Source: Blastomonas sp. SL216
Lineage (GTDB): Bacteria > Pseudomonadota > Alphaproteobacteria > Sphingomonadales > Sphingomonadaceae
Reading direction: 5' to 3'
DNA length: 64,000 nt
Assembly (NCBI GenBank): GCA_026625625.1
Contig: CP113055.1
Coordinates: forward strand, 3,269,001-3,333,000
Shown here: piece by piece, positions 14,374 to 27,496 of the stretch
Numbering within the stretch: the stretch's first letter is position 1
Layout: each line of letters starts with the position of its first letter
Position numbers and translations under genes: made by a program
The notes under the pieces: generated by a model
Told to the model about the DNA's origin: nothing
Databases searched by the model: none
What the model saw: only the letters and a program-made list of their open reading frames with translations

Positions 14374-17300
14374 CTATTTGACGAGCGGTTTGGTGCCATC
14401 ACCGAGCAGGATGAACGCCGCCCAGTAATAGGGATGCGATGTCAGCGGATCATCCATCGCAGCGCGCTGCGCCTTGGCCAGCGATTCGTTCATCGCGGTG
14501 CCCGGGCTGGCCTTGAACAGCGAGGAGATCAGATTTTCGGTGGCGTTGAAATCGTCCGGCACTGGCCAATGGCTGGCGAGAACCGAACGTGCACCGGCGC
14601 CCACGAACGCGCGGACCAGACCGTCGAGCGCGAAATTGCCGCCGGTCTCGATCCCCGCCTCGCGCGAGGCCGATACGGTGGCAAGCCCAGCCGTATCGCA
14701 GGCCGAGAGGATCACCAGATCGGCATCGAGCTTCAGGTCGAAAATCTCCTTGAAGCTCAGCAGCCCGTCAGAGCTCGCATCGCCGAACGATGTCACCAGC
14801 GCCGGGCGGGCCGGGCATTCGGGGCGCGGCGCAGTCACCAGGCCGTGCGTGGCAAAGTGCAGGATGCGATAATCGTTGAGATCGTCGCGGCCGAGCAGGG
14901 CGGTGTCGCTGAAGCTCTGCTGGGTCAGCACATTGGCGCGGCCTGCGCCCAGCACGCTTTGCGCCAGCTTGAGCTCGGCGGGCGAGATCGGGTCCATCCA
15001 GGTCGCGACCGGCCATTCGCAATCGGCGTCGCGGCTAGCCGAGGCCAGCTGGATGCGCTCGGGCGGCGGCGCGTTTTCACCCACGCCCAGATACGCCTGC
15101 TTGCCGCGCGCAGGCGCAATGGTGCGCACATCGGCGAATGAGCGCGGCGACACCGCGATCGAGAAGCGCCGGTCGCGCCCGAACCAGGCAACACCGGTAA
15201 AGTCGAACGGGTCGGCATCAAGCGCCGCAGACCGTTCCAGATAGGCATCGACGCCTTTCTGGTCCTCGACCAGCAGGCCCGGCGGCAGCTGCAGCAGCGC
15301 GCCATCGGGCTCGTAGACCAGATGCTCGATACCGGCCAGATCCTGTTTCAGGCCGGGGAACAGCGCATCATAGAGCTTGCGCGCCTCGACCACGTCGAAG
15401 GGATAGTTGGTCGGCTGGCCGTTTTCGATGACCACGATCGAATCGCGCAGCTTGGCGACGGTCTTGTCGAGATCGGACCGGGTCAGGTTGACGCTGACGG
15501 TGCGCACCTTGTCCGCCGTGATCAGCTGGCCATAGACCTTCGCGCCGACAAAGCTGACCTTGTAATAGCCCTCGCGCGGGCCGAGCAGCTTCTGCAGTTC
15601 GGGCAGCGTCACCGATGTCGGCGAGAGCACGCGATATTGCGAATACTGGCCCAGTCGCGATTGCAGCGCGGTCTGCTCGTTCTGCTGCGTGGTCAGCGAT
15701 TCGCGCGCCAGCGCCAGCGTCGCCACATCATCGGGCGTGGGCGAGGGCAGCGCTTCCAGCCGCTGGATTTCCGCGCTGGTGCGGGAGATTTCGCGGGTGC
15801 GGGTTACCGCCAGGCGGAACAGCGCAGAGGCCTCGTCATTGCCTTCGGAAAGCTCGCGGGCCAGCACCGCCTGGGTCTGGGCGACGCCGGGGCGCTGCAG
15901 CAGCTGGCTGGCGTTGAACATCCGCGCGGCGACCTGCTGGTCGCTGTCCGCGCGCACCGCCAGCTGGGCGAAATAGGGGCCCAGCATTTCCTTCATCGAT
16001 GCGCGCGCACTCGGCACGGCTTCGCCCTCGGCGACGATCTCGTCATAAAGCGCGATCGAGGCATCGGCCTCGCCCCGCCGCGCGAGGAACGCGGCGAGCC
16101 GCCCCTTGGCGCTGAGCAGGCCGGGTGATTGCGGATAATCGAGCTTGTAGATGTCGAGCGCCTCGGTGAGGCCGGCCCGCGCGCCTGCGAAATCGCCGCG
16201 CGATTCCTGGATCAGCGCACGCTGTGTCGCCACTTCCGCACGCAGCCAGCCGGTCGAGCTGATCCGGCCGTTGCGCACCGCGACGATCGTGTCGATACCC
16301 TGCTGCAAGGCGAGCAAGGCTGCGTCGCTCTGGCCCGACAGCCTGAGCGCGGTGCCGCGCAGCAGCAGCGCCTGGCCATCCAGAATCTGCGCGCGTTCCG
16401 GGCCGGTCAGGCTGGAATCGACCCCGCCCAGCCGCTTGAGGCCGGAGTTCTCGCGGTTGATCTGGTCGGCCAGCATCTTGGTGATCTCGCCCTGCGACAG
16501 GCGCGTTTCGCCCACCATCTCGGTATCGATCGAGACCGGGCGGTCGAGCACCTTGATCGCTTCGGCGGGGTCTCGCTGGTTGATCGCATCGATCGCGCGG
16601 AAGTTGCGGATCATGCGCTGGGTGACGCCGTCGCTCGACGCGACCAGCTTGTCCGCACGCGCGAACAGGGCGCCTGCTGTGGCGAAATCGCCCATGTTCG
16701 ATTGCTGCAGCGCCTGGTTGGCCAGGAACTCCGCCGTCCGCTCGGTCCCGCCCTGTTCGCGCGCGGCCAGCGTCTCGAAGAATTCCGAGGATTCGGCATA
16801 GGCGCCGTAATTGTTGCGGACATAGGCCTCGACCCGCGCCGATTCCTCGTCCAGCGTGCCGGCCTGGATGCGGGCAAAGGCGGCAGGATCGCTGACCTGG
16901 GTGGTGGCGACATCGACGGTGCCCGGCACCGCGCGGTCGGTCACCAGTGATGCCAGCGCCAGCTTGAGCGCGGAATCATAGCCCGAAAGCCCTTCGGCCA
17001 CGAACACCGTGTCACCGCGCACCGCGGCATAGATGCGGTAATCGACGCCGGCCTTGGGGTCGCGGCATTCGATGACGCTCGCGCCGCCCACGGTCTCGAC
17101 CTCGGTCACCTGCTTTTCGCCGCACGACAGCCGGGTCATCGCCGCCTGAAGATATTGTGCGAGCCGGTCGCCTTCGCCGCCGCGCAGCGCATAGAGCGAG
17201 GCGACGGGGCTGGCAGCATCGCGGCACACCACGCGATAGCCGCGATCGAACATGCTGGTCAGCGCAGCATCGGTCGGGCGATATTGCGCGGTGCACAGCA

Positions 17301-17463
17301 CCCCTGCCGATCCGACACGAAAGCTGTCGCGCAGCGCGATCGACGGCTGGGTCTGGGCCAGGGCAGGTGAGGTGATGCCGGCGGCCAGCGCCAGCAGCGC
17401 CGTGCCGCCATGGCGCAAGGCACGGCCAAACGTGCCGGGCTGCAACGACGGGGTGCGGATCAT
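14374..17463 (-). CDS. Secreted TPR-CHAT caspase-like protease of the TPS locus
   Basis: A 1029-residue protein with a signal peptide (residues 1 to about 36, ending SPALA). The middle (about 200-560) is helical with repeat-like TPR character (FLANQALQQSNMGDFATAGA, AELRRGEADASIALYDE-like units). The last third is a CHAT peptidase domain: catalytic His in YRILHFATHGL (about residue 873) and Cys in DLVILSACDTAG (about 922), both intact, followed by GARSVLASHWPVPD. CHAT proteases cut partner proteins. The start overlaps the tpsA stop by 4 bases, so it is co-translated with the exoprotein, which is its most likely substrate. Export suggests action in the periplasm or outside. Confidence 0.9.
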   Translation of the reverse strand: MIRTPSLQPGTFGRALRHGGTALLALAAGITSPALAQTQPSIALRDSFRVGSAGVLCTAQYRPTDAALTSMFDRGYRVVCRDAASPVASLYALRGGEGDRLAQYLQAAMTRLSCGEKQVTEVETVGGASVIECRDPKAGVDYRIYAAVRGDTVFVAEGLSGYDSALKLALASLVTDRAVPGTVDVATTQVSDPAAFARIQAGTLDEESARVEAYVRNNYGAYAESSEFFETLAAREQGGTERTAEFLANQALQQSNMGDFATAGALFARADKLVASSDGVTQRMIRNFRAIDAINQRDPAEAIKVLDRPVSIDTEMVGETRLSQGEITKMLADQINRENSGLKRLGGVDSSLTGPERAQILDGQALLLRGTALRLSGQSDAALLALQQGIDTIVAVRNGRISSTGWLRAEVATQRALIQESRGDFAGARAGLTEALDIYKLDYPQSPGLLSAKGRLAAFLARRGEADASIALYDEIVAEGEAVPSARASMKEMLGPYFAQLAVRADSDQQVAARMFNASQLLQRPGVAQTQAVLARELSEGNDEASALFRLAVTRTREISRTSAEIQRLEALPSPTPDDVATLALARESLTTQQNEQTALQSRLGQYSQYRVLSPTSVTLPELQKLLGPREGYYKVSFVGAKVYGQLITADKVRTVSVNLTRSDLDKTVAKLRDSIVVIENGQPTNYPFDVVEARKLYDALFPGLKQDLAGIEHLVYEPDGALLQLPPGLLVEDQKGVDAYLERSAALDADPFDFTGVAWFGRDRRFSIAVSPRSFADVRTIAPARGKQAYLGVGENAPPPERIQLASASRDADCEWPVATWMDPISPAELKLAQSVLGAGRANVLTQQSFSDTALLGRDDLNDYRILHFATHGLVTAPRPECPARPALVTSFGDASSDGLLSFKEIFDLKLDADLVILSACDTAGLATVSASREAGIETGGNFALDGLVRAFVGAGARSVLASHWPVPDDFNATENLISSLFKASPGTAMNESLAKAQRAAMDDPLTSHPYYWAAFILLGDGTKPLVK

Positions 17464-20400
17464 GGCTGTCCTCCGGTATCGGGTGCGGGATCGATCAGGG
17501 GCTGATCAAGCTGCAGATTGGGGTTGCCGCCGCTGGTCACGGGTTCATCGATGACCGGCTCGACGCCAAGGCGGCGGGTGTTGACGATGGTGACCGGCGG
17601 CATGATCGGGCGGCGCGGTGCCGCCTCGCCACGGGCTGCCTCTTCGGCTGCCGCTTCGGCTTCCTCCTGCTCCTGCTTGGCCTCACGCTCGGCCGCGGGC
17701 GTCGGCGGGGGCGGCCCGGCGTGCGAGATCACCGTCGGGCTCTGCTCGGTCACGCCGCCGCCACCGCATGCCACCGCCGACAGCAGACAGCCGTTGACGC
17801 TGGAATTGCTGGTAAAGCCGCTGGGCCCGCCACTGTCCTGTCCGGTGCTGCTGGCCGAGCGCGGGAAGATCAGGTCGCGCACCGACGTGCCGTTGCGCAC
17901 CAGATCGCCGGTGTCGAGCAGCTGGCCGTAGATCACCAGGTCGATCAGCTGCGACGACGCGCTCTGCTGTGAGCTGCGCGGCGTCACCTGGAAGCTGCCC
18001 ACGCGGCCGAAGAAGCCGGCATTCAGCAGCGACGTGCCGGTGTTCTGGATCAGCAGCGTGCTGCCCACCGTGAACTGCAGGCGCGAGGCCTGGATCACGC
18101 CATCAGGCCGCGATGTGGCGATCGGCAGGCCGAGTGCCGTGTCGCGTCCGGCGAAGTTCACGTTCGATGCCAGCTGTTCGAGCAGCGATGCGCTGGCGAT
18201 GTGGATGTTGTTGGCATTGATCGCCAGCGTGCCGCCCGGCGAACTGCCGTTGAGGAAGATGCCGCCGGTATCGGCGTTGATCTCCACCCGATTGGCATTG
18301 AGCGCCACCCGGTTGGTGGTGGCCATGGCGTTGAACACCGCATTACCATTCACGCGGATGGTGCCCGACGTGTTGATCGTCAGGCTGCCTTCCGAACCGT
18401 TGAGGTTGACCCCGCTGGCCGCTGCCGATCCGTTCATCGTCAGCGCACGGATTTCGACCCCGGTGCCGGTGGAAGAGACATTGGGGGCGTTGATGACGAT
18501 GTTCTGCGCGCGGATGCGCGAGATCTCGCTGCCATCGAGCGTGTAGGTCCCGCTGCTCTGGCTGTCGCTGGTGGTGCCGCCGATGATCACCGCGCCGCTG
18601 CGATTGGCGGTCAGGGTGATCGTGCCGGTGCTGGCATTGCCCAGGCCGCCTGCCTGCGAGAAGGCGATATCGCCCGAACTGATCGCGATTGTCGGCGCAG
18701 TGGCCAGGCCGCCGAACACCGCCGTGCCGCCGACATCCAGGCTGATCCGCGTGCCCGCCGTGATCGTGCTGCTGGCCGAGAAGCCGCCGGTCGAGCCGGA
18801 GAGCAGGGTACCGGTCGTGACCGGACCGCCGATCGACACGCTGCCGCCCGCGCGCGCCGGGGTGGCAGCGAGCAGGGCATTGAGGTCGATCGCGCTCAGC
18901 GTCGTCGTGGACGAGACGCCGGAACTGTTGGCGAGCAGGGCGGTGCCGCTAGTGCCGGTGGCGATGCTGCCGGTGTTGATGCTTTGCGAGGCGAGCAGCA
19001 GCGCATTGCTGCCGGTGGTGACATTGCCGGTATTGAGGTTGCCGTTCAGCGCTGCGGCAAAGACCGCATTGGTGGCATTGAGCGCGCCGGTCGTGATGCT
19101 GCCGCCACGCACGCGGATCTCGTTGGTCGAGCTGACATTGCCGGTGACGATGGCCTGGTTGGCGCGCACGAGCACGCTGCCGCCCGCCGTGATCGCGCCG
19201 GTGGTGATGCTCACCGCATTGCCGAAATTGCCCTGGCCATCGTCCGAGCCGATTCCCAGCAGGCCGAAGCTGTTGATCGTGCCGGTGACAATCGTGCCAT
19301 TGGCACCCAGGCCGATGCTGAAGCCGGTGGAGGTCGTGCCTGCGCCATTGGTGCGCAGATTGCCCAGCGTCATGTTGCCGCCAACGACCGTGCCGATCGA
19401 CGAGCCTGCGGTAATGTCGCCGCCGGTCACCGATCCGCTCACGTTGAACTGCGTGTTGGTGGCGGAATTGAGCGCGCCGAAGCCCAGATTGCCGCCCGTG
19501 GCGCCGATGGTGATGCCGCCACTGGTCGAGGTGACATTGGCCAGTGTCGCGGCTGTGCCGCTGATATTCACCACGGATGCGGTGATCGCCCCGGTCGAGG
19601 TGAAGCTGGCTGCGCGCGAGCGCAGCTGCGCCGCGCCGGTTGCGGTGACCCCGCCGATGCTGACCGCGCCCTGGCCATCCACGGTAACCGCGAGGTTCGC
19701 CGACGTACCAGTCAGCAGCGCGCCTGCGGTGATCGTGCCCGCAGAGGTCAGCACGATATTGCCGCCGGTTGCGGTAATCGCGCCGGTGCCGAGCGCTCCG
19801 CTGGTGGTGGTGAGGTTGACGCCCAGGGCCGCGTTCATCGCCTGCGCAGCGATGCTGTTGGCGGTGATGGCGATGCTGCCCGTCGCTGCGGTCACGGTGC
19901 CGCCGAAATTGGCACCCGTGCCGACGCCGGCGCGGATGTTGCCGGCAGAAACCGGTCCGTTCACCGTCAGGCTGCCGAGCGTACGCACCGGAGTTGCGGC
20001 GAAGATCGGAGCCGGGTCGCCGCCGACGAACGACGCATTGCCGCCCGCACCGTTATTGCCGCCGTCTCCGAACAGCGACTGCATCGACGAATTGCCGACA
20101 TAGAAGAAGCGATCGTTCGCCGTGCCAGCGGTTGCGCCGCCGTTGATCTGGATATTGCCATCGACCAGCAGCAGGATGCTCGAACCGGTGGACAGCGCGC
20201 CGCTGGTGAAGCTGCTGGTGGTCAGTGCGCCGATATTACCCACCGACTGCACGGTGCCGATCTGGATCGCGCCATTGCTGGCCAGGCCCGTGCCGAAGAA
20301 TTCGCCGGTAAACACGCCGCGCGTCACGATATTGCCGCCGGTGATGGTGCCTGCCGCGAGCACGCTGAGGTTCAGGCCCGCATCGACATTGCCGAACGTC

Positions 20401-23400
20401 GCATTGCCGATGGCCTCGATATCGGTTTCCTGGCCCGATCGCAGGTTGCCGACGGTGATGTTGCCTGCCCCCGTCTCGAGCGCGATATAGCCGCCTGCGG
20501 TGACGTTGCCGATGGTCAGATTGCCGGCATTGACGAGGATATCGACATAGCCAGTGGTGGCGGTGGCGGTGGACAGGGTCAGCCCGTTCCTCGCCGTCAT
20601 CGCGATAAAATTGGCCGCGGTGACAGTGCCTGCATTGATCGCGCCCGATGTCGCGGTCAGGTTGATATGGTTGCCCGAGGTCAGGTTGCCGAGCTGCAGC
20701 GAGCCGCCCTGCATGCCGATCACGCCACCGGCATTGATGTTGCCCAGATTGATCGCGCCGGTTCCCACCGCCGTGAAACTGCCCGGGGTGGCGAGGCTGG
20801 CGGTGACGATGATGTTGCCCGCCGACTGCAGATTGATCGCGTTGGCCGTGATCGTGCCGATATTGGTCGGGCTGGTCACCACGGTGTCGGCCACGAAGGT
20901 GCCCGCCTGGATGCCGAATGCCCCCGCGTTCAACGCGCCGTTGTTGACCAGGACCGAAAGCTGGCCCGGCGTGATGAAGGTGAAGCTGCCCGTCACATTC
21001 ACGGCGGCGTCGGTGATGCGGACATAGTCTTCGACAATATCGGTGGGATCAGGCGCATCGCCGGCATTGCCGATATTGTAGACGATGCTGTTGGCGGTGA
21101 CATCACCATTGGTCGCCCGGAAGAACGATCCCGTCCCATAAGTCGTGGTGCCATTGACCGCACCCGTCCCGGCGGTTCCCCGGGCGATCGCGGTGATGTC
21201 GCGCGCGACCAGGCGTCCCCGGTTGGTCGGAGCCTGGAACTGCTCGGTGCTCTCCACGCCGATGGTGCCGCTTGTGGCATTGCCGCCATTGCCGCGCACT
21301 GCGCCGGTGCCGCCATTGCCGCCATTGGCATTGGCAAGCAGGGTCAGGTTGTTCACCTCGACCAGCGAACCGCGCGAGGCGAAGAAGAGGTCGCCGCCCA
21401 CGCCCAATCCGCCGTTGCCGCCATTGCCACTTCCGGTGGTGCCGGTGCCGCCATTGCCGCCCGCGCCGCCAAAGCCATTGGCCTGGATCAGCGCATCGGT
21501 CATCTTCATGAAGCCGGTCGGTGTCGGGTTCGGACCATTGGTGATGGTGGCGCTGACCGTGCCCATCTGGGCGCTTCCGCCGGTGCCGATGCCGCCCGCG
21601 CCGCCATTGCCGCCCCGGCCTGCGGACCCTGTGCCGCCTGCGCCGCCTGCACCTGCAAAGCCGTTCATCGAAGCCTGGAGGTTCAGGATGTCGAGCTGAC
21701 CGTTGCGCGCGGTGCCGATCGCCTGCGTTCTGCCGCCGGTGGCATTGCCGCCAGCGCCGCCTGCGCCGCCGGTCGTGCCATTGGCACCCGCACCGCCTGC
21801 GCCGCCAAAGGCGTCGGCCACCAGCGTGGCATTGTTGAAATCGAGCAGGCGTACGGTTGTGCTCGCACCGGAAATCAGGGTGGCAAGGCCGCCGATTGCA
21901 TCCCCGCCGCGTCCGCCAAGCGCGCCATCGCCGCCGCGACCCACTGCGGCGATGAACAGGTCACCGCCGACCATCTGGCTGTCGTTCGAACCGAAGCGCG
22001 ACGTGCCGCCCGATCCTGCGCCGCCATTGCCAGCCAGCAGCGCGTTGCCGCCGGTGCCGTTGGCGGACATCGATATGGTCCCACCGAAATTGAAGCTGCC
22101 GACGACGGCGATCGTGCCACCTTCGCTCAGCCCGCCGGTGCCGGTGCCGCCATTGCCGGTCTGCGCCGAACCGCCAAAGCCGTTCGATGCCATGGTCAGC
22201 GCGCCGCCCAGGGTCATCTGGCCATTGCCGGTGCCGAAGATCACCGCCGCCGTGCGCCCGCCTGCTGCATTGCCGCCATTGCCGGTGACCGTGCTGTTGC
22301 CGCCGAACGCGCTGGCATCCAGCGTGGTCGATCCGGTGATGGCGAGCGTGCCCGATTGCACCTGCAGCGTCGCCGTGCCGCCCAGGGCTTCGCCGATAAT
22401 GCCGGTCAACGCAGAGCCGGTATCGGCAATCGCATCGGCCAGCAGGTTGCCGTTGATCGTGATGTTGCTGCCAGCATCGCGCGCTTCGACAATCACGATG
22501 CCGCCGGTGGCGTTGCCCACATTGCCCGCACCGTCGCGCACGTTCCCGCTGAGCCCCTGGGCCGACATGAACGCATCCTGGTTGAGCGTGATCCGCCCGT
22601 TGCCCAGCGCAATGATATTGGAGTTGCCGCCGAGCGCTGCCCCGCTGTTGCCGCCCGCGCCTCCCGAGCCGCCAAAGGCGCTGGAGTTCATGTTGGTCGC
22701 GCCGCCGATGGTGACGGACCCGGTATTTTCGGCAAAAATCTGCGTGTCGCCGCCATCGCCAAGGCCACCTGCGGTGCCGACGCCCGATCCCTGGCCGCCA
22801 AAGCCCTGCGCGCTGACTTCCGCCGCGCCGGCAATCTGGATGATGCCGCCGACGATCGACCCGATCACCGCGCGTCCGCCGGTGCCGATGCCGCCCGATC
22901 CCGTGCCGCTCAGCGCCGATCCGCCGGTGCCGTCGGCATTGGCCGTGCCGGTGCCGCCGATGGACAATGTGCCCGCGCCCGCGCCCAGATTCGCAAGCCC
23001 GCCGGTGCCGTTGCCGCCGCGAATGCCGCCAATGCTGTTGCCGCCGAAGCCGCGCGCATCGGTGACGGCATTGCCGGTGATGGTGATGCTGCGATCATTG
23101 ACCGCGATCCGCACATCGCCGCCGGTGCCGTTGCCCGCAATGCCGTCACCGCCGCCGCTATTGTTGTCGCCGGTGCCGGTCGCTGCAACAAAGGCGTTGC
23201 CGGTGATGCTGATCTGGCCACCGGTATTCTGCGAAATCGATGCGTTGCCGCCGATGCCATCGCCGCCATCAATTCCGGTCAGCGCCGAGCCGAACACAGC
23301 GCCATTGGCGTTGATATCGACATTCCCGGTAACATTGATCGCGCCATTGGCCAGCGCGACCATCTGCGCTGTGCCGCCGCGGCCATTGCCCGACCGGCCC

Positions 23401-25730
23401 TGTCCCGATGTGGTGGCCGATCCGCCCACGCCGCCTGCGCTGATCCCGGCCCCATTGCTGAGCGTCATCACGCCGCTGGTATTGGTGCTGATCACCGCGA
23501 TGCCGCCCGTGCCATTGCCGCCGATGGTACCCTGGCCGCCAGCCGCGAAGGCGCTGACATCGGCCGTACCGGTGACGTTGAGCGATCCGCCTGTTCCGTT
23601 GATGACCAGTTGCGCCTGGCCGCCGGTCGAATTGCCGCCGGTTCCACCCGGAACGCTCGCATTGCCGCCGTTCCCGATGGCCTGGATCGTCACGTTGGCG
23701 CCAGCGTTGAGCGTGCCACCATTTCCGAAGATCTGGACAAAGGCCGATCCACCCGTGCCGACGCCCCCGGTGCCGGTCGCCGCATCGGTTTGTCCGCCGA
23801 TGCCGAAGGCCGTCACCAGCAGATTGCCGAGCACGCCGGTGGTGCCGCCCAATCCCGCTCCGAAACCGGCCGTGCCGCCCGTGCCATTGCCGCCAATGCC
23901 GATGCTGGAATTGCCGCCAAAGCCATCCGCATGCAGCGTGGCCGTGCCTCTGACGGTGAGGAAATTGCCCGAGCCGGGCGTCGCGGTCGGGTTGCCCGCA
24001 GCGACCGAGATAGTGCCGCCAAAGCCGTTTCCGGCGGTGCCCGAACCCAGGTCCCTGCTGCCCGTGCCATTGGCAGTCGCCAGCAGATTGCCGTTGATCA
24101 GCATATTGGCGTTGCTGCCGTTATTGGAGACAACCACCAATCCGCCACGGCCAAAGTTGCTCCCGAAAATGCCCGCAGTTTCGCTGTCGCCAGCAAAGCC
24201 GTCCGCAGACAGCGTGGCATTTCCGCCAATCGTCAGGTTGCCGCCATCGTCAGCTTGCAGCAGCGCCCTGCCGCCGGTGCCGCTGCCGACAGACGCTGCC
24301 GTGACCGCCGTGCCGCCAAAGGCGTTGGCGGTGATACTGGCTGATCCGAAGATATTGATCGAGCTGCCATTGAAGGCGCGGATCTGGGCCTCTCCGGCGG
24401 TGACGTTTTCGCCTTCCGCGATCGCGAAGGCGTCCGCCGAGACCGAAGCATTGCCGAGCACCGTCAGCGTGCCCGCCGCAGCGCCGTTGTTGCGCGAGGT
24501 GATCCGCGCTGCGCCGCGCGAATAGAGCGAAACATCGCCCGCAAAATCGAGCGTCCCGCCAAAGGCATCGGCAATGGCTTCGGTCACACCCGCGCCGAAC
24601 AGTCCGGAGGTGATCAGCGAGTTGACGATGAACAGCCGCGCCTGCTGCGTCGGGTTGACCGGCGCGCTATTGTCGATGTTGTCGCCGAAGACATTGTAGC
24701 CGGCGGACAGGATGATCGAATTGCCGACGATATTGGCGGCACCTGCGACGTCGAAGCCAAGAGTGCTGCCCTGGCCGATCAGGTTGTAGATCGCGTTGTT
24801 CTTGGGCACCGCGACCATGTAGATGCGGTGATTATCCCCCGTGCCGCTGCTGACCGGGCCGCCTGTGGTTCCACCATGGAAAATGGCAGCGTTGCCCGTT
24901 GCCGGGTTGTTGGTGGCCGGGTCGCCATTGGTACCCGTGGTGATCTGGATATCGAACAGGCCGCCGGTGCCGAAGGTGATCGTCGCCGCTTCTGCGCCGA
25001 CCATCAGTGCTGACCCATTGACATCGACCGTGCCGTTCTGCCGGATGATCGGTGCGACCATGGCAATGTAGCTGTTTTCGGGAGTCGCCTGGATCAGCGC
25101 GCCCGGATCGACCTGGACATAGCTGGTGGGGGAAGCCCCGGCCCCGCCCAGTGTGAACGAACCTGACGCGTTGATGAAATTGCCCGTCGCGTCGCGCACC
25201 GGGTCAAGGCTGGTCAGCAGTAGCCCGCCGACATCGATCACCCCGGTCGAGCCGATGACGATGCCGCCCGGGCTGTAGAACCACACATTGCCGCCGGAAA
25301 CGAGGCCCGCACCGGTCTGCAACTGGCTGATGATGGTGCCATTCATCGCGATCGCGCGGGTGGGATCGGTGGGGATGATGCGGTTGAGGACGGTGAACTG
25401 GTTCTGCGCGGTCGGGTTGTTGCGGAAGAACGCGGTGCGGCCATTGGGCAGGAAGTTGATCACTCCGCCACCGATCGCGGTGTCGTTGGTCGTCCAGTTG
25501 ATCACAGCCTGGTTGGTATCGACGCGGATATTGTCGGTATTGGTTCCGCGGGTGATGTTGACCCCGCCAGAGACGACCGTGGGCGTTCCCTCGAATGCAC
25601 CGCTGCCTGCAGCCGCCTGGGCAAAAGCCGGCCCGGCACAGCCGATCGCCAGGCCCGTGGCCAGTGCAAGCGCAGAGGTCGCCTTTGCCAGCAGGACGCG
25701 GCGGGCGGTCAGGTTGCGATCATAAGCCAT
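17460..25730 (-). CDS. TpsA: giant two-partner-secretion exoprotein (haemagglutinin-type)
   Basis: A 2756-residue protein. It begins with a signal peptide (to about residue 38, ending PAFA). The TPS secretion domain follows: PTVVSGGVNITRG, VINWTTNDTAIGGG, NVWFYSPGGIVIGSTG and DVGGLLLTSLDP, the pattern of filamentous-haemagglutinin N-domains. Residues about 440-1500 are a very glycine-rich array of GNGTGG units; about 1550-2400 is beta-helix sequence with GNLTIGNVTAGG-like units. The C-terminus changes to NGCLLSAVACGGGGV, a proline linker and an EQEEAEAAAEEAARGE charged stretch. It should be secreted through TpsB and form a long beta-helical fibre. One base overlaps tpsB and four overlap the CHAT gene. 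Confidence 0.92.
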   Translation of the reverse strand: MAYDRNLTARRVLLAKATSALALATGLAIGCAGPAFAQAAAGSGAFEGTPTVVSGGVNITRGTNTDNIRVDTNQAVINWTTNDTAIGGGVINFLPNGRTAFFRNNPTAQNQFTVLNRIIPTDPTRAIAMNGTIISQLQTGAGLVSGGNVWFYSPGGIVIGSTGVIDVGGLLLTSLDPVRDATGNFINASGSFTLGGAGASPTSYVQVDPGALIQATPENSYIAMVAPIIRQNGTVDVNGSALMVGAEAATITFGTGGLFDIQITTGTNGDPATNNPATGNAAIFHGGTTGGPVSSGTGDNHRIYMVAVPKNNAIYNLIGQGSTLGFDVAGAANIVGNSIILSAGYNVFGDNIDNSAPVNPTQQARLFIVNSLITSGLFGAGVTEAIADAFGGTLDFAGDVSLYSRGAARITSRNNGAAAGTLTVLGNASVSADAFAIAEGENVTAGEAQIRAFNGSSINIFGSASITANAFGGTAVTAASVGSGTGGRALLQADDGGNLTIGGNATLSADGFAGDSETAGIFGSNFGRGGLVVVSNNGSNANMLINGNLLATANGTGSRDLGSGTAGNGFGGTISVAAGNPTATPGSGNFLTVRGTATLHADGFGGNSSIGIGGNGTGGTAGFGAGLGGTTGVLGNLLVTAFGIGGQTDAATGTGGVGTGGSAFVQIFGNGGTLNAGANVTIQAIGNGGNASVPGGTGGNSTGGQAQLVINGTGGSLNVTGTADVSAFAAGGQGTIGGNGTGGIAVISTNTSGVMTLSNGAGISAGGVGGSATTSGQGRSGNGRGGTAQMVALANGAINVTGNVDINANGAVFGSALTGIDGGDGIGGNASISQNTGGQISITGNAFVAATGTGDNNSGGGDGIAGNGTGGDVRIAVNDRSITITGNAVTDARGFGGNSIGGIRGGNGTGGLANLGAGAGTLSIGGTGTANADGTGGSALSGTGSGGIGTGGRAVIGSIVGGIIQIAGAAEVSAQGFGGQGSGVGTAGGLGDGGDTQIFAENTGSVTIGGATNMNSSAFGGSGGAGGNSGAALGGNSNIIALGNGRITLNQDAFMSAQGLSGNVRDGAGNVGNATGGIVIVEARDAGSNITINGNLLADAIADTGSALTGIIGEALGGTATLQVQSGTLAITGSTTLDASAFGGNSTVTGNGGNAAGGRTAAVIFGTGNGQMTLGGALTMASNGFGGSAQTGNGGTGTGGLSEGGTIAVVGSFNFGGTISMSANGTGGNALLAGNGGAGSGGTSRFGSNDSQMVGGDLFIAAVGRGGDGALGGRGGDAIGGLATLISGASTTVRLLDFNNATLVADAFGGAGGAGANGTTGGAGGAGGNATGGRTQAIGTARNGQLDILNLQASMNGFAGAGGAGGTGSAGRGGNGGAGGIGTGGSAQMGTVSATITNGPNPTPTGFMKMTDALIQANGFGGAGGNGGTGTTGSGNGGNGGLGVGGDLFFASRGSLVEVNNLTLLANANGGNGGTGAVRGNGGNATSGTIGVESTEQFQAPTNRGRLVARDITAIARGTAGTGAVNGTTTYGTGSFFRATNGDVTANSIVYNIGNAGDAPDPTDIVEDYVRITDAAVNVTGSFTFITPGQLSVLVNNGALNAGAFGIQAGTFVADTVVTSPTNIGTITANAINLQSAGNIIVTASLATPGSFTAVGTGAINLGNINAGGVIGMQGGSLQLGNLTSGNHINLTATSGAINAGTVTAANFIAMTARNGLTLSTATATTGYVDILVNAGNLTIGNVTAGGYIALETGAGNITVGNLRSGQETDIEAIGNATFGNVDAGLNLSVLAAGTITGGNIVTRGVFTGEFFGTGLASNGAIQIGTVQSVGNIGALTTSSFTSGALSTGSSILLLVDGNIQINGGATAGTANDRFFYVGNSSMQSLFGDGGNNGAGGNASFVGGDPAPIFAATPVRTLGSLTVNGPVSAGNIRAGVGTGANFGGTVTAATGSIAITANSIAAQAMNAALGVNLTTTSGALGTGAITATGGNIVLTSAGTITAGALLTGTSANLAVTVDGQGAVSIGGVTATGAAQLRSRAASFTSTGAITASVVNISGTAATLANVTSTSGGITIGATGGNLGFGALNSATNTQFNVSGSVTGGDITAGSSIGTVVGGNMTLGNLRTNGAGTTSTGFSIGLGANGTIVTGTINSFGLLGIGSDDGQGNFGNAVSITTGAITAGGSVLVRANQAIVTGNVSSTNEIRVRGGSITTGALNATNAVFAAALNGNLNTGNVTTGSNALLLASQSINTGSIATGTSGTALLANSSGVSSTTTLSAIDLNALLAATPARAGGSVSIGGPVTTGTLLSGSTGGFSASSTITAGTRISLDVGGTAVFGGLATAPTIAISSGDIAFSQAGGLGNASTGTITLTANRSGAVIIGGTTSDSQSSGTYTLDGSEISRIRAQNIVINAPNVSSTGTGVEIRALTMNGSAAASGVNLNGSEGSLTINTSGTIRVNGNAVFNAMATTNRVALNANRVEINADTGGIFLNGSSPGGTLAINANNIHIASASLLEQLASNVNFAGRDTALGLPIATSRPDGVIQASRLQFTVGSTLLIQNTGTSLLNAGFFGRVGSFQVTPRSSQQSASSQLIDLVIYGQLLDTGDLVRNGTSVRDLIFPRSASSTGQDSGGPSGFTSNSSVNGCLLSAVACGGGGVTEQSPTVISHAGPPPPTPAAEREAKQEQEEAEAAAEEAARGEAAPRRPIMPPVTIVNTRRLGVEPVIDEPVTSGGNPNLQLDQPLIDPAPDTGGQP
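21270..24420 (-). repeat. Internal glycine-rich coding repeat array of tpsA
   Basis: Dozens of degenerate units encode G-rich turns (GGNGTGG, GNGGAGGN, GFGGN) roughly every 35-45 residues. On the plus strand they read as recurring CCGCCGGTGCCG and GCCATTGCCGCC. The composition keeps long reading frames open on the other strand too. Unit number may vary between strains. Confidence 0.8.
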
Positions 25731-27496
25731 CAGCGGGCTCCCCAGGGCAAAAGCAGAGTGGTGAGGGTGAACAGGATGCGCGGGTCGGGTGTATCGGTGA
25801 GCAGGCCGGCGCGCTCGGTCGGCACTGCGACGGTGACATCCAGCCGGAACCGGTCGTTGAGGCGCGCGCGGGCACCGATGCCGACCGAGCTCAACCGCTG
25901 CGGATCGCCGGGGCGGCCATCATCCCAGGTCCAGGCGACATCCATGAAGGCAAAGGGCTGGAACGAGAAGTCGACATTCTTGATCGGCGTGACCTGCGGT
26001 CCGCGCAGCTCCGCCTGAAAGCCGACGCCATCGTCGCCGACGATCGTGCCCGGATCATAGCCTCGCCCGATGGTGAAGTTGCCGCCCGAATATTCCTCGA
26101 AGCTGAGCACCGGATCGAAGGCCAGCTGACCGCGCCCGCGGATGAAGATCGACGCATCGTCGCCGAGCGCCGCCTCGGCGGAAAGTTCGCCGCGGATCAG
26201 CGTCGAAGTCGGGTCGCCATCGCCGCGCGTGGTCGGCGTGCGCACCAGCGCGCAGACGAAATTGCACGGATCGCTCGCACCCAGGATCGACAGGCCTTGG
26301 CGGAATTCCAACTGGCCCGCCATGCGCCAGCGCGGCGCGGCACCATTAGCCATGTCGATCGCCTCGCCGGTGATCTGGGCATAGGCAATGCGGATGCGGT
26401 CGCGCGACAGCGGGCCGATGAAGTCAATGTCCTGATTGACATAATCGAGGCCCACCGCGCCATAGAAGGATGCCGCCTGGCTGCGCAGCAGCGGATAGCG
26501 CGCCTCTGCACTGGCGAGCAGCGTGGTCGCCGTGATCTTCGCGGCGACGCCGGCGGGCAGGTTGATATCGGGCTCGGTCCAGGCATAGGTGAAGCGGCCT
26601 GCCAGCGTCAGGCCTTCGCTGCCGACGCGGAATTCATGCCCCGCCTGGACGATCTGCTGTTCCTGGAAATCGAGCGTCGAATAGGCCGAGACATAGGTGC
26701 GGTCGCCCATGCCGGTCAGGCCATAGAATTGCGCGCGCAGCTGTGCGCCATAGGGCCCGGCGTCGCGTGCTGCCATGTTCTGGACGTTGAGGTCGAGCTC
26801 GAACGGGGTGCGGCGCACGGTCACATCGCCGATCAGCTCGCCCGGGCCGGTGCCCGCAGGGACCAGGGTCAGCCGGATGTCATAGCCCGGCAGGTCGCGC
26901 GCCAGCAGCAGATAGCGTTCGGCCAGCTTCTGGTTGAACACCGTGCCCTCGGTCAGCCGCTGCAGATAGCTGGCGACCAGCTTTTCGCCATTGCCGGCAT
27001 CGCCGCGCACGCGGATGGAGGTGAGCTTGGCGTAGAGCACCTCGAACTGCACCACGCCATTGTCGATGCGCTGGGTGGGTACCTGGACCGCTGCGATATA
27101 ACCGTCGCGGCGCAGCTTGGTCGCGACGGCATCGCGGATCTCGCACAGCACGGCCACCGGCTGTTCCGTGCCGATATAGGGTTCGTACAGCGGCCGCAGC
27201 TCGATCGGCGCGACAGGGCCCAGATTGTTGAAGCGCGCTTCGCTGAGCGTCAGCTTGACATTGGCATAGGCAGGGTCGGCCAGCGGGCAGGGCGCGCGCT
27301 CGATATCGCCATCGACGGTCAGGCGCGCGGGTCGCTCGCTGCGCTGCTGCACCGGCCGCTCGATTTCCTCGCGGGTGGGGGGAGAGGGAACATTGACCTG
27401 CTGGGCATGGCCCGCCGTCGTCCACAACAGCCCGGCGCAGGTAACACTGCCCAGAATCAGCTGTCGCGTGCGGAAAAAGCGTGTCGCCAAGATCAC
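25730..27496 (-). CDS. TpsB: outer-membrane transporter of the two-partner secretion system
   Basis: A ShlB/FhaC/HecB-type protein. From GTG 27496 it gives 588 residues with a signal peptide ([20 protein letters not shown] then TTAGHA); the frame stays open to an ATG at 27592, but those codons do not look coding. A POTRA-like region (about residues 110-190; [20 protein letters not shown]) precedes a C-terminal beta-barrel with [16 protein letters not shown], which fits the conserved 'RGY/RGF' segment of FhaC loop 6, and a final aromatic-poor strand ending LLLPWGAR. It would export TpsA across the outer membrane. Stop and tpsA start share one base (TGATG). Confidence 0.9.

Follow-up and report, generated by a model that had tools for sequence, protein, structure and literature searches.

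A TPR-CHAT gene is coupled to a tagged two-partner secretion exoprotein

The subject of this analysis is a 64,000-nucleotide stretch of the Blastomonas sp. SL216 genome (contig CP113055.1, positions 3,269,001 to 3,333,000; hereafter the window), which at 14374..27496 holds a three-component secretion operon: a two-partner secretion (TPS) pair, made up of the outer-membrane transporter gene tpsB and the giant exoprotein gene tpsA, together with a gene for an exported-looking TPR-CHAT protein. The CHAT gene is genetically coupled to a TpsA that carries a short C-terminal tag, in two gene orders and in two bacterial orders. The comparative data make it moderately probable that the CHAT protein is a periplasmic caspase-clan protease dedicated to this one exoprotein, which it would cut after docking on the tag. 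The genes follow one another in the order tpsB, tpsA, CHAT gene, all on the minus strand; the first two overlap by one base (TGATG) and the last two by four bases (ATGA), which confirms the single translation unit proposed in the first-pass annotation of this DNA.

The tag, which the first-pass annotation had missed, lies near the TpsA C terminus and has a consensus of about P-V-[T/A]-[S/G]-x-G-[N/D]-x-x-L. In the window protein it reads EPVTSGGNPNL (residues 2729-2739; 17514..17546, minus strand), as located by a tail alignment and a tag profile, and it ends 17 residues before the end of TpsA within a surrounding tail of divergent low-complexity sequence. Relatives were gathered by a pattern-based scan of a species-genome collection that returned 109 stretches with a CHAT relative, the best 80 of which resolve into 79 distinct loci, all named as sphingomonads except one named only as an alphaproteobacterium. 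An open CHAT frame is present at 77 loci; at 66 of them a frame of 900 residues or more, read as TpsA, ends at or near the CHAT start (a count that leaves out the 954-residue frame of L086, the remainder being contig-edge cases or the CHAT-first loci L049, L068 and L086), and the TpsA/CHAT overlap is exactly four bases in 43 of 70 pairs. Across 69 aligned tails (the alignment leaves out L008, L024, L034, L049, L068, L072, L086, L059, L076, L062 and L079), the proline of the tag is present in 66, the glycine in 65 and the leucine in 58, and the position after the glycine is Asn in 42 and Asp in 26. A strict regular expression, composed after the tails were seen, matches 61 of 71 tails at 6-26 residues from the end, against 0.011 matches expected per 130 residues, which rules out a chance low-complexity match as the source of the tag. 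Synonymous variation in the tag codons (66 tails), together with retention of the tag where CHAT is not downstream, rules out a DNA or RNA constraint at the CHAT start; nor does the overlap with that start account for the tag, which persists in loci ordered CHAT-TpsB-TpsA. Our own tag model finds 65 of the 79 loci. Among the 14 that it misses, five show the tag by eye (L024, L034, L036, L064 and L067), three are weighed below, and in the others the TpsA tail falls beyond the locus (L049, L068 and L086) or the locus lies at a contig edge or gap (L059, L076 and L079).

How closely does the tag follow the CHAT gene? An even draw of 147 Sphingomonadales genomes holds 98 TpsB loci and 85 CHAT loci. 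A CHAT gene lies within 30 kb and on the same strand at 42 of the 98 TpsB loci, in more than one gene order, and 42 of the 85 CHAT loci are paired with TpsB; the first-pass annotation had made its proposal depend on CHAT and TPS genes not being rarely adjacent elsewhere, and they are not. With a tag profile (A1) built from 28 tails and matches counted only in frames of more than 1500 residues, the 98 TpsB loci divide into 34 with CHAT and tag, eight with CHAT and no tag match, none with a tag and no CHAT, and 56 with neither (Fisher p 5e-19, kinship ignored); the survey table holds 39 tag matches, including all those in frames of more than 1500 residues, and counts two ShlB fragments of genome G027 once. 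The tag-bearing loci span 13 genus codes, all of one family. The 32 A1 matches up to E = 0.0022 all fall in TpsA-sized frames (1907-7555 residues) that have CHAT and TpsB close by, so no second substrate is seen in the 147 genomes. The largest tag-bearing open frames in this search have 7555 (G099:C100; L111, L134) and 5862 residues (G112:C1; L110). Since A1 was built from CHAT-linked tails only, its matches among near relatives are partly circular; it held no tag from the order CHAT-TpsB-TpsA and none from the second bacterial order. Two of the eight CHAT-linked misses (G023 and G127) show divergent tags by eye, NPLVGRGNEGL and DPLVGTNNEGL; four have a shorter CHAT and a different TpsA tail, as at locus L087; and two (G111 and G051) combine CHAT, a cyclase-like gene and TPS genes, the TpsA of G111 running past the contig edge. 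The CHAT of G092, which is interrupted by unknown letters, scores E 0.001 only. At 20 CHAT-less TpsB loci, 16 complete frames next to TpsB (11 of these frames read as TpsA) show no match to the strict expression within their final 75 residues, and a looser pattern matched one of the 11 TpsA (L179) and one non-TpsA frame. Two other TPS systems of the host genome, both without CHAT, end 5 and 14 residues past a Cys pair and have no tag.

The tag is present in two gene orders, TpsB-TpsA-CHAT as in the window and CHAT-TpsB-TpsA; a third order, CHAT-TpsA-TpsB, has none and is represented by L087. Repeated independent rearrangement is not supported, as a quick tree, some of whose branches are long, requires only one change between the two tagged orders. 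Among 16 loci scanned, the N-terminal domain of the CHAT protein is found at 7 of 9 tagged loci (one miss is cut by the locus edge) versus 0 of 7 untagged ones, and the TPR profile at 9 of 9 versus, weakly, 2 of 7. L087 itself (L087:7304-14081) is a second CHAT-TPS operon of the host genome, about 100 kb past the window end; its CHAT is short, and its 918-residue TpsA has a canonical TPS domain and a tail like those of cyanobacterial haemagglutinin-like proteins. One may ask whether the genes are mere neighbours, with the tag serving TpsB or the cell surface, since many unrelated genes share operons and all of the evidence is comparative. The zero tag matches at 56 CHAT-less TpsB loci, and the way in which tag and CHAT stay together across a change of gene order and likewise in the second bacterial order, make such a lack of any functional link very improbable. 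The dedicated relation between CHAT and TpsA put forward in the first-pass annotation, with the TpsA C terminus as the target, thus gains strong support from the tag.

The coupling recurs in a second alphaproteobacterial order

Three of 190 genomes of the class carry the CHAT N-terminal domain, two of them in the family of the window and one, with two loci, in another family. When a CHAT profile was run over the 76 genomes of the order of this third genome, 14 of them had matches at E 1e-60 or better, 18 in all, a set collected without use of the tag. In 13 of the 18 an upstream frame ends at the CHAT start, 12 of the 13 with a four-base overlap; these frames are read as TpsA and are edge-cut at the loci, and those of L146 and L147, when fetched further, have 2194 and at least 3207 residues. 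All 13 tails hold LVNQGNE[DE][LF] or a close variant near the end (NE in 13 of 13, GN in 12 of 13). The shared core of this tag is N-E-x-[L/F], in 12 of 13 as G-N-E, and the core G-N-E-D-L recurs in the tags of sphingomonad CHAT-TpsB-TpsA loci (...VTGAGNEDLW). Beyond these bacteria, the cyanobacterial plasmids of Fischerella (L187) and Nostoc (L186) carry CHAT or TPR-CHAT-like genes near TPS genes whose TpsA have other tails; because these plasmids pair CHAT-type genes with untagged TPS genes, CHAT-TPS neighbourhoods are wider than the tagged family. Some deep-branching TPS-CHAT loci adjoin type VI secretion genes, namely L122:16237-17433 (TssA, with an ImpA_N domain, after CHAT), L123:14369-15285 (PAAR and DUF4123) and L147:2402-7091 (OmpA-like, TssA, TssB and TssC).

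The two-partner secretion pair

The transporter gene tpsB (25730..27496, minus strand) encodes 588 residues from a GTG start picked by reading, with a signal peptide, likewise by reading, followed by POTRA and ShlB barrel domains. The Pfam matches (POTRA_2 at 1.2e-5, ShlB at 8.9e-11) place the protein among the type Vb transporters. The exoprotein gene tpsA (17460..25730, minus strand) encodes 2756 residues with an N-terminal TPS domain and glycine-rich repeats. Taken alone, the window TpsA has no Pfam or NCBIfam match at E 0.1. A profile of 25 sequences (the window and 24 relatives) finds EtpA (4.2e-11), the HMW1 pro-piece (1e-7) and HxuA (1.7e-7) in the PDB, and 14 of its 25 rows match Pfam TPS (PF05860), the window row not being among the 14. 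The rationale for reading a diverged TPS domain in the window protein is based on these two results, and the N-terminal TPS domain expected of a type Vb exoprotein is accordingly recognised through the 25-row profile rather than through the window sequence in Pfam. A profile comparison with the PDB (A3; EtpA, HMW1-PP and HxuA) places this secretion domain at about residues 41-325 (24756..25610, minus strand). The last 100 residues are read as a low-complexity linker and the tag. A contact-dependent inhibition or polymorphic toxin, with a C-terminal toxin domain and an immunity gene downstream, was also considered for TpsA and dropped, as Pfam shows no toxin domain and the CHAT gene stands where the immunity gene would be.

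The CHAT protein is a putative caspase-clan peptidase

The third gene (14374..17463, minus strand) encodes 1029 residues with a Pfam CHAT domain at 6.1e-53 (peptidase domain, residues 694-1022; 14398..15384, minus strand). The motifs LHFATHG and ILSACDTAG noted in the first-pass annotation are present, and the presumed catalytic residues that they hold, His873 (14845..14847, minus strand) and Cys922 (14698..14700, minus strand), are kept in 78 of 78 sequences in an alignment of the window protein and 77 relatives, for which L062 and L079, having broken frames, were omitted from the 79 loci. Both residues are also invariant in a six-row alignment (A5) with four distant relatives. Domain and dyad together mark the CHAT protein as a putative peptidase of clan CD, the caspase clan. 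Pfam shows CHAT and weak TPR and SNAP matches only, so the window protein is not a LapG-family protease. As to the signal peptide noted in the first-pass annotation, a crude score shows an N-terminal hydrophobic segment in 75 of 77 CHAT proteins and a lipobox-like match in 1 of 77; we term the protein exported-looking.

A search of the PDB with the single CHAT sequence gave chance matches only. An AlphaFold model built from 55 sequences (mean predicted local distance difference test score, pLDDT, 82.9; predicted template modelling score, pTM, 0.81) has three parts: a mixed domain at the N terminus, an extended region of helical repeats, and the peptidase. In Foldseek the model obtains its best E-values with DdvA (8rw5, 5.0e-11), human separase (9hma, 1.5e-10) and the TPR-CHAT protein of Craspase, and the Craspase chains have the best template modelling (TM) score of the three (8d9f_A, E 3.5e-10, 884 columns, TM 0.57 on target). 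The modelled fold of the CHAT protein thus matches Craspase TPR-CHAT, over most of its length, and separase. Separase is a eukaryotic protease that cuts cohesin, and DdvA, a transmembrane anti-sigma factor by its PDB title, comes from a myxobacterium; the two share the best Foldseek E-values with Craspase, but their full-chain TM is low (0.18 to 0.27 for entries 9hma and 8rw5). The first-pass description of a secreted counterpart of the TPR-CHAT systems holds at the level of predicted fold, provided that secreted is taken to mean exported, most likely to the periplasm. The helical TPR region (residues 193-604; 15652..16887, minus strand) was delimited by the structure model and a profile. The N-terminal domain (residues 38-178; 16930..17352, minus strand), modelled alone at pLDDT 92.7, has as its nearest folds PsbP and then the Eag effector chaperones (EagT6, SciW) and DcrB, all weak (best E 2.2e-3); its four Cys are invariant in 31 sequences, which would fit an exported protein. 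Elsewhere in the host genome, L088:8476-12594 encodes a lone exported-looking TPR-CHAT protein of 1372 residues, with no TPS genes recognised beside it.

Tail topology and a model for TpsA cleavage

As described in the first-pass annotation, the window TpsA tail has a Cys pair (CLLSAVAC, residues 2648-2655; 17766..17789, minus strand), a proline-rich linker and a charged stretch. The Cys pair resembles the C-terminal disulphide anchor of HMW1 and HxuA and is not a constant feature of the tagged family: it is present in 51 of 69 tails, three of the 18 misses being contig-edge fragments, and absent from 15 of the 66 evaluable ones, for which reason it is not favoured as the CHAT target. In 49 of the 51 the first Cys stands 84-137 residues from the TpsA end (203 and 240 in the other two), and the tail past this plug is acidic, proline-rich and 76-129 residues long in 49 of the 51. 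According to the available text of two sources, HMW1 and HxuA are held in their TpsB by a disulphide knot, their C terminus lying on the periplasmic side (PMC5422565, PMC3297439). On such a topology the tag, which lies beyond the Cys pair, would face the periplasm.

In the mechanism that we favour, TpsA would cross the outer membrane through TpsB, as adjacency and overlap of the two genes suggest, and stay attached; the C-terminal Cys pair would serve as a plug in most relatives, and the tail past it would stay in the periplasm and present the tag. The CHAT protein would leave the cytoplasm by means of its own signal peptide and bind the tag via its N-terminal domain, its TPR domain or both, and the His/Cys dyad would cleave TpsA either at the plug or in the neighbourhood of the tag. 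This cut would process the adhesin or release it from the cell, as LapG does with CdrA. We infer binding, cleavage, the cut site, the periplasmic location and release as the purpose. According to the accessible part of one study, Craspase TPR-CHAT recognises its substrate Csx30 through a C-terminal part, and its cut sites are not conserved in sequence (PMC11106740). By analogy the tag may be a docking site, with the cut at or upstream of it.

Several observations weigh against this mechanism or stand beside it. The non-conservation of Craspase cut sites makes the conserved tag point to docking and not to a cut site; as the tag follows the Cys plug, cleavage there and nowhere else would leave TpsA attached, and release needs a cut upstream. 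Of the 15 evaluable tails that lack the Cys pair, 13 keep a clear tag, so the plug model is not general. The tag is degenerate at L048, L055 and L084, three of the 14 loci missed by the tag model, and the complete TpsA of G051 has no clear tag despite CHAT, a cyclase-like gene and the TPS pair. The N/D switch in the tag amounts to one change on the CHAT tree (10 of 78 labels assigned by eye), which renders residue covariation between the tag and the CHAT pocket uninformative. As to the models, the alignment with Craspase has a root-mean-square deviation of 10.8, and the N-terminal fold match is weak, with no PDB match at E 0.001 or better and TM about 0.4. CHAT genes also occur apart from the pair: 43 of the 85 CHAT loci surveyed across the Sphingomonadales lack a nearby TpsB, five of the 18 second-order CHATs (L157-L161) have no TpsA upstream, and no tag-bearing TpsA was seen with the CHAT genes of Niveispirillum (L143), Agrobacterium (L145) and Nostoc (L144). 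Conversely, G120 has a weak tag match (E 0.72) in a 1530-residue frame that lies near no CHAT or TpsB gene.

The position of the tag at the extreme C terminus, presumably exported last, and the exported look of the CHAT protein would also suit a role in secretion quality control, in which CHAT degrades stalled or mis-secreted TpsA whose tagged tail remains periplasmic; in the available text of a 2017 review of two-partner secretion, DegP does likewise for HMW1 and FhaB under impeded secretion (PMC5422565). A general protease would suffice for that task, the pairing of a dedicated enzyme with a conserved tag suggests regulation of a more specific kind, and an anchored TpsA would likewise show its tail permanently; we hold quality control to be a doubtful explanation, if the likeliest of the alternatives. 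The 13 plug-less tails that keep a clear tag imply that another anchor may hold these TpsA, and one hypothesis is that CHAT is mainly a tether or chaperone, which through the tag would keep TpsA in place or guide it, with cleavage absent or rare. TPR regions are known to bind peptides, and Eag chaperones and PsbP are among the weak fold matches of the CHAT N-terminal domain. If CHAT were a scaffold, one would expect the dyad to be missing in places; its retention in 78 of 78 sequences and in A5 makes a purely binding role unlikely.

An alternative hypothesis is that CHAT leaves TpsA uncut and, on binding it, receives a signal that directs the protease to another target or to a cyclic-nucleotide pathway. 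In the accessible description of Craspase, TPR-CHAT is turned on by its partner and then cuts Csx30; several CHAT-TpsB-TpsA loci hold a cyclase-like gene (CHASE2 and cyclase domains by Pfam at L126), and several have a small exported protein between CHAT and TpsB. Set against this, the nine flanking frames scanned in the window contain no cyclase or other candidate substrate, and at L127, L130, L068 and L086 CHAT stands directly before TpsB with no cyclase; we consider such a switch improbable. The large CHASE2-cyclase gene beside CHAT at L126:9571-12421 has counterparts, similar by reading, at L128, L135, L049 and L142, and these genes raise a possible cyclic-nucleotide link to adhesin control; the small exported protein of L126 has no Pfam match. 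Cytochrome c554-like genes directly follow the tag-bearing TpsA at two CHAT-TpsB-TpsA loci (L135:14808-16184 and L142:27535-30890), and L142 also has an HbpS-like protein there.

Clan CD includes enzymes that read C-terminal signals, among them the glycosylphosphatidylinositol (GPI) transamidase PIG-K and PorU of type IX secretion. The tag might likewise be a C-terminal sorting signal, with CHAT cutting after the Asn or Asp found at that position in 68 of 69 tails and transferring TpsA to an envelope acceptor. This reading is about as improbable as the switch; if true, it would describe a caspase-clan sorting system for two-partner secretion.

Genomic context and relation to known systems

The host genome is a single contig of 3.86 Mb, and both a relative scan and the CHAT tree place the closest relatives of the window CHAT protein in Blastomonas. 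The operon is flanked on one side by ribD, ribE and ribBA and on the other by aminotransferase and prephenate dehydrogenase genes; besides these, the nine scanned frames include peptidase M24 and HAD genes and one frame without a match. A type III-E CRISPR-Craspase system, in which TPR-CHAT accompanies gRAMP (Cas7-11) and a CRISPR array, was rejected, as the window has no CRISPR-like direct repeats of at least 22 bases within 120 bases and the nine flanking frames have no Cas domain; the Cas search covered those frames and not the rest of the genome.

The window locus resembles HMW1/HxuA-type secretion in the POTRA and barrel of TpsB, the TPS domain of TpsA and the C-terminal Cys pair, and differs from it in the tagged tail past the Cys pair and the CHAT gene in the operon. 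With Csx29, the TPR-CHAT protein of Craspase, the CHAT protein shares a TPR region followed by CHAT, the His/Cys dyad and the Foldseek match, and the proposed docking on a C-terminal tag would parallel recognition through a C-terminal region in Craspase. Unlike Csx29, it looks exported, has an extra N-terminal domain and pairs with a giant exoprotein. The L087-type loci (L087, L131, L136 and L137) and the Fischerella plasmid likewise place CHAT beside a filamentous haemagglutinin-like TpsA and a TpsB; the four differ in a shorter CHAT without the N-terminal domain, and both groups have another kind of TpsA tail, several with Cys then GLPP, and no tag. LapG belongs to a different protease family from CHAT, and we know of no tag for LapG-CdrA. 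It offers the analogy on which our proposal for the window draws, being a periplasmic protease that, in the available parts of the sources, cleaves the TpsA adhesin CdrA off the cell (PMC4694147, PMC5422565), in Pseudomonas aeruginosa, where, unlike in our proposal, control is by cyclic di-GMP (PMC5422565).

Among literature matches listed by title and beginning of abstract, with subscription literature mostly outside coverage, no paper pairing CHAT with two-partner secretion was found, and none was found for CHAT domains with hemagglutinin, filamentous haemagglutinin or secreted separase/TPR themes. CHAT with Sphingomonas returned only a cyanobacterial genome paper, judged by its abstract, and CHAT with periplasm or secreted only a paper on diversity-generating retroelements. 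The main text of the 2017 review contains no word beginning with CHAT, and its available text has the genes for TpsA maturation proteases appearing outside TPS operons (PMC5422565). In the accessible part of a polymorphic-toxin survey, the caspase-like releasing peptidases are built into the toxin proteins, an arrangement unlike that of the window operon.

Descriptions of two-partner secretion give it two genes and place the genes for the maturation proteases elsewhere. In the loci analysed here a putative caspase-clan protease and a short tag travel with the TPS pair in 13 surveyed genera of one family and in a second order. The exported side of the TPR-CHAT/separase superfamily thereby gains a predicted substrate and a ten-residue handle, which would make the targets of many non-CRISPR CHAT proteins directly testable, and the operon provides a way into the question of how giant adhesins might be shed or retained by environmental sphingomonads.

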